Below, piece after piece: positions 32,870 through 55,949 of a stretch of 64,000 nt of DNA. Source of the DNA: Planctomycetota bacterium (GTDB lineage Bacteria > Planctomycetota > Phycisphaerae > Phycisphaerales > SM1A02); assembly GCA_003671055.1 (NCBI GenBank), contig QWPV01000003.1, positions 1 through 64,000 of the forward strand. The letters run 5' to 3'. The notes beneath the pieces are model-generated. The model had not been told where the DNA came from and did no database searches. It saw nothing but the letters and a program-made list of their open reading frames with translations. Position 1 is the stretch's first letter. Each line of letters begins with the position of its first letter. Both the position numbers and the translations under genes were made by a program.

Positions 32870-32927
32870 TGTGGAGCGTGTGGATTCATTAGTTCTTGAG
32901 CTGCGTTGAATGTTGATGCGAGAGTCG

Positions 32928-34697
32928 ATGGCGAAGAAGTCCGACCGTTCTTCTGAAGCACCGCCGCTCGCGATTGAACCCGCTGAGCATCGACCCTACA
33001 CCGTCCTCGCGCGGCGCTATCGATCACGCGAATTCGATGATCTCATCGGGCAAGAACCGATCTCGCGCACGCTGAAGAATGCAATGCTCACGGGGAGAAC
33101 CGCGCATGCGTATCTGTTTTGTGGCACGCGCGGGGTTGGAAAGACTTCGCTCGCTCGCATCTTTGCTCGCGCGTTGAATGCTGGCACTGGTGGCTCAGAA
33201 CATGTGGCGGTGGGCGAAGCAATTCTTCGTGGCGAAGATCTTGATGTGACGGAGATTGATGGCGCATCCAATCGCGGCATCGATGATGCGCGCGACCTCA
33301 TCGCGGGCGCAGGCCTCGCACCCACACGTGGGAAGTATCGCATCTACATCATCGATGAAGTGCACATGCTCACCACGCCCGCCTTCAACGCGTTGTTGAA
33401 GACGATGGAAGAGCCACCGTCGCACGTGAAGTTCATCCTGTGCACCACCGAGCCGCACAAAGTTCCGCAGACGATTCAATCGCGATGCCAGCGCTTCGAC
33501 TTCCGCAATATTCCAGCGAGTGAGATCGCGCGTCACCTCGGCGCAGTCGCGACGAAGGAAGGCATGGACGCGAGTGCGGATGCGTTGCTTGCAGTGGCGC
33601 GCATGGCGAATGGTTCGATGCGCGATGGACTGAGTTTGCTCGATCGACTCTTTGCAGCTTCGCTCGATCAACGCGTCGACGCGGCATTGCTTGAGCAAGT
33701 CTTCGGACTTCCACAGGACGCATTGCTGTTAGACCTTGTTGCTGCAATTGTCGAAGAACGCTGCGCGGATGCGTTGAAGCTCGGCGCACAATTGCTCGAA
33801 GGTGGAACTGCTGTCGAGCACGCGCTCGACTTACTCGCCGAACGATTCCGCTGGCTCCTCGTTGCGAGCGCGTGCGGCGGTGCGAGTGAACTGCTTGAGT
33901 GTGCGAGTGCATCGCGCGAGCGTCTCACGATACTCGCCAAGCATGTCGATCTCGCGCATTGCGTGCATGCGATCGCTGCGTGTGATGCGATTAGCCGAAG
34001 CGTGCGATCTTCAAGTGCGCCGCGTGCGCTCTTTGATGCGTGCCTTGTTCGTCTCGCGCTTGCGTCGAGATTCGCGTCAGGCGCAGCACTGCTTGCGGGC
34101 GCCTCGCAGGTTTCCCCACCTGGGGTCGACGCAAAAAAAGCCGTTGACCCCCGAGTGACAAACGCCGGGGGTCGAGTACCACCGGTCGTAGCACCGTCTT
34201 CATCGCCCTCACCGCAGATCGCACCTGCGACAGTGCTGCCGCCATCCGTCGAAGGAGCCCGCATCGATTCGAAAGATGCACTCGTGGAATCTCTCGCGCA
34301 GCACGCGGTGCAGAGTTCCGCAGACAAAAGTGTTGTCGATGAGATCGCCGTCTTAGAATTCACTCGCACTCGCGATGGTGCGAAGGCAATCATCGATGCG
34401 GATCCGTCCACGAGCCAAGGTCGCTACGTCCTCGATCATCCAGAGCGAGTGCGGACACTCCTGCGCAAAGTGCTCGGCGGACCTGTGGAACTCGACTTGC
34501 GTCCACGAAGTGGCCGTGAGGCGCCGCGCGCGGTTGACAAAGGCGTTGCAGACGCGGTCGCTCGCGAAGATCCACTAGTGAAAAGCGTGATGGAGTTGTT
34601 CGACGCGACTATCGTGGAGATCACGGCTCGCGTCGCGCGTGAAGACTCGCTTGAAGCGTCAAGCGCATCGTCGGATGAATCTGTCGACCAGCACTAA
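32928..34697 (+). CDS. dnaX: DNA polymerase III tau/gamma subunit
   Basis: Clamp-loader AAA+ subunit; tau also links polymerases and helicase. The 589-aa tau form has YRSREFDDLIGQ, Walker A CGTRGVGKTS (~66-73), IIDEVHMLT (143-149), LCTTEPHKVPQTIQSRCQRF (arginine finger region) and ANGSMRDGLSLLDR. The four zinc-binding cysteines expected after ARALN are missing: the segment reads NAGTGGSEHVAVGEAI. A -1 frameshift signal at 34133-34173 would give a 406-aa gamma form. ATG at 32928 gives MAKKSD; in-frame ATGs at 32910 and 32916 are alternatives. Confidence 0.94.
   Translation: MAKKSDRSSEAPPLAIEPAEHRPYTVLARRYRSREFDDLIGQEPISRTLKNAMLTGRTAHAYLFCGTRGVGKTSLARIFARALNAGTGGSEHVAVGEAILRGEDLDVTEIDGASNRGIDDARDLIAGAGLAPTRGKYRIYIIDEVHMLTTPAFNALLKTMEEPPSHVKFILCTTEPHKVPQTIQSRCQRFDFRNIPASEIARHLGAVATKEGMDASADALLAVARMANGSMRDGLSLLDRLFAASLDQRVDAALLEQVFGLPQDALLLDLVAAIVEERCADALKLGAQLLEGGTAVEHALDLLAERFRWLLVASACGGASELLECASASRERLTILAKHVDLAHCVHAIAACDAISRSVRSSSAPRALFDACLVRLALASRFASGAALLAGASQVSPPGVDAKKAVDPRVTNAGGRVPPVVAPSSSPSPQIAPATVLPPSVEGARIDSKDALVESLAQHAVQSSADKSVVDEIAVLEFTRTRDGAKAIIDADPSTSQGRYVLDHPERVRTLLRKVLGGPVELDLRPRSGREAPRAVDKGVADAVAREDPLVKSVMELFDATIVEITARVAREDSLEASSASSDESVDQH
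34133..34173 (+). promoter_or_regulatory. Programmed -1 frameshift signal in dnaX
   Basis: Slippery heptamer A AAA AAA (34133-34139) in the correct zero-frame phase (GCA AAA AAA GCC), 6-nt spacer, then an 8-bp stem GACCCCCG (34146-34153) / CGGGGGTC (34166-34173). In the -1 frame the next codons are AGC CGT TGA, so a shifted ribosome stops at 34145-34147. Layout matches the E. coli dnaX gamma signal. A Shine-Dalgarno-like stimulator upstream is weak (CTGGGG at about 34121). Confidence 0.85.
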
Positions 34698-37448: not shown

Positions 37449-37476
37449 TTGCTTTTTTTTTTGGGGGGGGTAGGCT
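37449..37476 (+). promoter_or_regulatory. Homopolymer-spaced promoter of the island (phase-variable candidate)
   Basis: TTGCTT (37449-37454) and TAGGCT (37471-37476) are separated by 16 bp made only of T8 then G8; the full tracts are T10 and G8. The hexamer TAGGCT ends six bases before the ATG at 37483, like the leaderless genes elsewhere. Slippage in either tract would change the -35/-10 spacing. No stem precedes the T-run, so it is not an rpoN terminator. Confidence 0.5.
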
Positions 37477-55797: not shown

Positions 55798-55949
55798 CAG
55801 CACAGGTGAAGCGCGGAGAGCAGTTCTCGCAATCAACGCTTCATTCGTGTTCACCACATCATCTTCTTTGCATGCGCGCCTCTTCTGGAGACGCAACTGT
55901 GAAAACCGTCGTCTAGCCGTGTCGGAGCGTGCTGGACGACGTTTTTTTT
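55798..55949 (+). ncRNA. Candidate small RNA of about 150 nt
   Basis: Bounded by the promoter at 55762-55791 and by a terminator at 55907-55949. Internal pairing is possible: GAAGCG/CGCTTC encloses GAGA/TCTC, with GGTGAA/TTCACC as an alternative pairing. The only open frame across it (55790-55993) runs through the terminator and begins before the predicted start. The region lies between two minus-strand genes. No known RNA family recognised. Confidence 0.45.
55907..55949. terminator. Strong, possibly bidirectional terminator
   Basis: CGTCGTCTAGC pairs with GCTGGACGACG (11 bp, one G-T), loop 13 nt, followed by T8 on the plus strand and by GTTTTC on the minus strand. A second palindrome GCGCAAA-TTT-TTTGCGC lies at about 55951-55968. 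It can end the plus transcript and the minus-strand barrel gene. Confidence 0.8.

Follow-up and report, generated by a model that had tools for sequence, protein, structure and literature searches.

The role of gamma, the short product of the clamp-loader gene dnaX, has long been disputed, and the case has been argued mostly from E. coli. A dnaX gene of the E. coli type would be expected to make the short protein at about 50% in vivo. The E. coli gene encodes tau in the zero frame and carries its slip site past domain III, with an SD-like element upstream, a stem 6 nt downstream and a -1 stop within 2-3 codons. Its heptamer, A_AAA_AAG, works because the single tRNA-Lys of E. coli pairs weakly with AAG, and A_AAA_AAA is far less shifty in that host (PMC5009743). 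The dnaX gene of Thermus thermophilus reaches the same outcome through transcriptional slippage on an A9 run, a type marked by at least nine A and by kept stops in both non-zero frames. In a third, inverted layout, zero-frame reading stops at the slip site, and it is tau that requires the frameshift; this has already been described (Antonov et al. 2013, PMC3711429; Atkins et al. 2016, PMC5009743), as rare and present in "many fewer bacteria" (PMC5009743).

The dnaX gene considered here lies in a 64,000-nt stretch of DNA (the window) from a genome of 2.85 Mb; the named genomes nearest to it are metagenome-assembled ones from Phycisphaerales and Planctomycetota. Judged by its sequence, it belongs to the already known E. 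coli-type dnaX -1 frameshifting, although it comes from a different phylum. The open reading frame matches TIGR02397 dnaX_nterm (E 1.3e-108), contains the Pfam domains DNA_pol3_delta2, DNAX_ATPase_lid and DNA_pol3_gamma3, and is followed by ybaB, recR and rpoN. Two T runs occur elsewhere in the window, T10 at 37453-37462, about 60 nt past the rpoN stop codon, and T8 at 55942-55949. From the ATG at 32928, the zero-frame product has 589 aa (62.7 kDa), and a start at the alternative ATG upstream (32910) would lengthen both products by 6 aa. The first-pass annotation proposed a programmed -1 frameshift yielding a short product of 406 residues ending KKSR, and the translation agrees: 404 aa are read in the zero frame up to the slip site, followed by S-R-stop in the -1 frame (43.4 kDa). 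The slip falls at residue 404, past the end of Pfam domain III at residue 382, and the zero frame runs 185 more codons rather than ending there, as it does in inverted genes.

The region beyond the slip site is modelled by AF2 as an alpha-alpha-beta-beta-alpha-alpha-beta domain with a core pLDDT of about 96. The corresponding tails of relatives match DnaX_C / DUF3646 weakly; the tail of the window gene alone gave no match against Pfam, and a foldseek search with it gave none with E <1e-3. Weak fold matches link the model to DnaA domain I (Z 7.4) and to chain 5fku_E of the E. coli pol III complex (Z 5.8), values that can reflect merely a common arrangement. This C-terminal domain is most likely the tau tail, which the short product lacks.

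The slip site itself contains every element that the first-pass annotation had listed, and Table 1 gives their positions. The A7 run occupies the codons GCA AAA AAA and is read as A_AAA_AAA in the X_XXY_YYZ phase. It is followed by the 6-nt spacer and by an uninterrupted 8-bp GC stem with a 12-nt loop. The last base of the -1 UGA lies 8 nt past the heptamer and overlaps the base of the stem. An SD-like GGGG, overlooked in that annotation, stands upstream, and its best anti-SD pairing is a modest -5.4 kcal/mol. The further claim that the E. coli dnaX arrangement is reproduced holds for the layout and fails for the heptamer: the A-site codon is AAG in E. coli and AAA here. The E. coli stem is also longer, at 11 bp. 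The exact A_AAA_AAG is a trait of the E. coli gene, not of programmed -1 ribosomal frameshifting as a kind. With a phased heptamer, a stem at about 6 nt, an SD-like element, a -1 stop and tau in the zero frame, the site is very probably an E. coli-type three-part signal for programmed -1 ribosomal frameshifting.

Table 1. Features of the dnaX gene and its putative frameshift signal, in window coordinates
Feature	Position	Strand	Remark
dnaX, clamp-loader gamma/tau gene	32910..34697	+	zero frame = tau, 589-595 aa
Predicted gamma-like -1 frameshift product	32928..34147	+	406 aa, domains I-III
SD-like GGGG, putative upstream stimulator	34122..34125	+	7-nt gap to heptamer
Slippery heptamer A_AAA_AAA	34133..34139	+	-1-shift phase
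6-nt spacer GCCGTT	34140..34145	+	gap-free alignment in all 12 close relatives
-1 frame stop UGA, closing the short product (...KKSR)	34145..34147	+	UGA/UAA there in 12/12 aligned sequences
Stimulatory stem, 5' arm	34146..34153	+	GACCCCCG
Stimulatory stem, 3' arm	34166..34173	+	CGGGGGTC
Tau-specific C-terminal region	34260..34694	+	absent from short product

Conservation of the heptamer and stem in relatives had been proposed as a check, and no synonymous loss of the heptamer was found in close relatives. The heptamer, the 6-nt spacer, the -1 stop (UGA or UAA) and the GC stem are kept in all four sequences of the genus and in all eight sampled from the sister genus g45. Over domains I-III, these relatives share 83-90% (genus) and about 70-75% (g45) identity with the window gene, and the linker surrounding the signal diverges among them. 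Within the genus, invariance is highest at the slip site, reaching 79% over 24 nt counted from there, and drops to 0-17% at 48-120 nt downstream. The A7 run of L007, from the same clade, is likewise in phase, and in some relatives G_GGA_AAA, another classical heptamer, replaces A7 at the same place.

The stem shows its own marks of selection. The 42-nt stem region folds with z = -4.0, and none of 200 shuffles is equally stable. RNAalifold recovers the stem from the 12 sequences of the genus and g45 with compensatory changes, and five pairs show such changes. The covariation score of the named stem is 0.331, against 0.125 for shuffled alignments (0/500) and at most 0.168 for slid versions, with one N inserted in the loop of four sequences so that the arms are in register; the unaltered, ungapped alignment yields the inner stem unaided. 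An inverted-repeat search returned nothing, its 9-base seed and 12-base minimum being longer than the 8-bp arms. Over 96 nt, the predicted fold favours a rival hairpin that pairs upstream GGGGTCGACGC with downstream GTTGACCCC (within 34122-34153). According to this model, the hairpin can compete with the stimulatory stem when the ribosome is absent, and a translating ribosome would have to melt it. A GC stem beside a T run on the opposite strand might also act as an intrinsic terminator or belong to some other RNA element, and the minus strand does carry T7 6 nt after the stem. This reading is highly improbable: a terminator and promoter search found no match at the stem site, including none for a minus-strand terminator, an Rfam search of the site gave no match even at E 1, a terminator would not have a 6-nt gap, and the elements keep a constant spacing with respect to the coding phase.

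Codon usage and an order-wide survey place the heptamer in a broader context. The survey covers 165 distinct Phycisphaerales dnaX genes and sorts them according to which A run, if any, the linker past domain III contains. That linker is poorly conserved and probably disordered, and Lys codons occur in it, so the A7 run and stem could be a functionless accident of Lys codons in low-complexity sequence. There is very little chance of this, since AAA is the rarer Lys codon (140 AAA vs 317 AAG), the stem covaries and the -1 stop is kept. Given Ala-Lys-Lys, local codon use produces GCA AAA AAA with a probability of about 0.026, and the A7 at the slip site is the sole run of at least seven A in the 47.8 kb of coding sequence in the window. 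Across the survey, such runs number 154 in 19,800 linker codons and 3 in 57,314 codons of domains I-III, a roughly 150-fold difference in density, and those of length 7 are always phased.

The same survey separates two classes of genes. An A7 run is present in 77 genes from 39 genera, in the shift phase in 77/77, and an A9/A10 run occurs at the same place in 71 genes, divided over the three phases as 22/26/23. This is the pattern predicted if ribosomal frameshifting depends on phase and transcriptional slippage is blind to it. In direct A7 genes, the -1 stop lies close to the site (median 1 codon) and +1 stops are not enriched, with 33% within 16 codons, equal to the control. Where A9/A10 genes encode tau in the zero frame, the nearest stops lie within 24 codons (-1) and 14 codons (+1) in 68/68 cases. 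A downstream stem above threshold accompanies 88% of A7 genes and 15% of A9/A10 genes; for an SD-like element above threshold 7-14 nt upstream, the figures are 90% and 25%. The A7 stems are stronger than those of A9/A10 genes (p 7e-5 for direct and 1e-8 for inverted genes, with shared ancestry ignored). SD-like pairing is -6.7 in direct A7 genes vs -3.5 after codon shuffling, and -3.3 vs -3.1 in A9/A10 genes; a class-wide minimum of anti-SD energy appears in A7 genes only, for 9-mers whose last base is 5-7 nt upstream of the slip site. A test of independent pairs for mechanism against stem and SD-like element yields three well-supported independent switches, too few for significance.

These classes bear on whether the short product could arise from RNA polymerase slipping on the A run, as in Thermus, rather than from ribosomes. 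Relatives in the same family carry A9/A10 runs in any phase, with stops in both other frames and mostly without stem or SD-like element; since they look Thermus-type, the ancestor may have used slippage, and shorter runs might slip too (Antonov 2013, PMC3711429). Slippage at this gene is nevertheless improbable. The run here is just 7 A, and the A7 class is phase-locked, has the stem and SD-like element, and shows no enrichment of +1 stops, which slippage would require. The window gene has a +1 stop at 5 codons, which is not kept nearby in the genus, where the relatives have theirs at 28, 37 and 34 codons. In addition, slippage on a homopolymer cannot explain the relatives in which G_GGA_AAA takes the place of A7. 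The conserved elements, the phase lock of A7, and the SD-like element with its stem support programmed ribosomal frameshifting; the shift by ribosomes, its efficiency, the short protein, and the presence of both proteins in the replisome are predictions from sequence.

The lysine tRNAs may explain why the A-site codon differs from that of E. coli. Unlike E. coli, the window genome has a second species, tRNA-Lys(CUU), alongside tRNA-Lys(UUU). The presence of both fits AAA at the A site, because the CUU tRNA would be expected to read AAG and pairs poorly with AAA. In the proposed mechanism, the SD-like element and the downstream GC stem would pause the ribosome on A_AAA_AAA while tRNA-Lys(UUU) occupies both its P and A sites. 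Part of the ribosomes would then slip back by one base, re-pair and terminate two codons further on, releasing the 406-aa gamma-like subunit, and the remaining ribosomes would continue to produce tau with its C-terminal domain. Two lysine tRNAs have been suggested to steer Thermus toward transcriptional slippage (PMC5009743). The survey bears on this suggestion, as the CUU tRNA occurs with both types and the ribosomal type uses AAA at the A site: the tRNA-Lys(CUU) pattern is near-universal in the order (205/244 good genomes, where a variant T arm may account for the missing matches), in ribosomal-frameshift and slippage genomes alike. Loss of tRNA-Lys(CUU) as the feature dividing the two groups of genomes is therefore not supported.

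Polarity varies within the order as well. About 60 of the A7 genes are inverted, as are 7 with G_GGA_AAA: a zero-frame stop closely follows the site, and reading in the -1 frame can continue. With an HMM of the tau tail that was trained on direct genes, the tau domain is detected (E<1e-3) in the -1 frame of 64/73 inverted genes and almost never in others. The inverted layout is the rule in family f2, where nearly all sampled loci show it (among L272-L322, e.g. L272, L274, L297 and L306), including genomes in very few contigs; further examples are L094, L096, L104-L108, L142, L157, L159 and L160. Since the zero-frame stop comes just past A_AAA_AAA, automated annotation probably calls these genes as a truncated DnaX of about 400 aa. 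Two species of genus g26 differ in heptamer as well as in polarity: one of L262 (G026) and L263 (G059) has an inverted A7, and the other a direct G_GGA_AAA, whose -1 UGA comes six codons downstream. The window gene, which is direct, sits near inverted genes of genus g25 in the tree of domains I-III. That tree was built quickly and has many weak branches, so its counts of at least 8 changes of mechanism and at least 11 polarity flips are parsimony estimates.

Collectively, about 160 of the 165 sampled genes keep a recoding signal, with at least three site types and both polarities, which is evidence that the making of both products is itself under selection. This suggests that the two-product output matters more than its means. 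Across the order, it is likely that this output is under strong selection while the means drifts: A_AAA_AAA or G_GGA_AAA frameshifting and A9/A10 slippage would interchange, polarity would flip, and the stem and SD-like element would come and go with the ribosomal type. Other Planctomycetota (L020, L027, L028, L030, L035, L037 and L071) carry A9/A10 with tau in the zero frame, which suggests that transcriptional slippage may have come before the ribosomal type. Such repeated exchange of mechanism and polarity within one order would go beyond known frameshifting and is the more interesting result; if true, it turns the Phycisphaerales into a natural experiment on the question of whether gamma is needed by cells, and why.

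Exceptions are few. A long A run is missing from 12 genes, and 8/12 have an in-phase G_GGA_AAA with a near stop; no A_AAA_AAG site was seen in any classified gene of the order. Two genes were set aside as unclear: L273 has A6 only, and L141 has GGGAAAG but lacks a nearby -1 stop. In genus g34, three genes (L153, L166 and L147) have no slip signal of any kind in the dnaX linker and may have lost the second product naturally. L164, a close relative of these genes, has A10.
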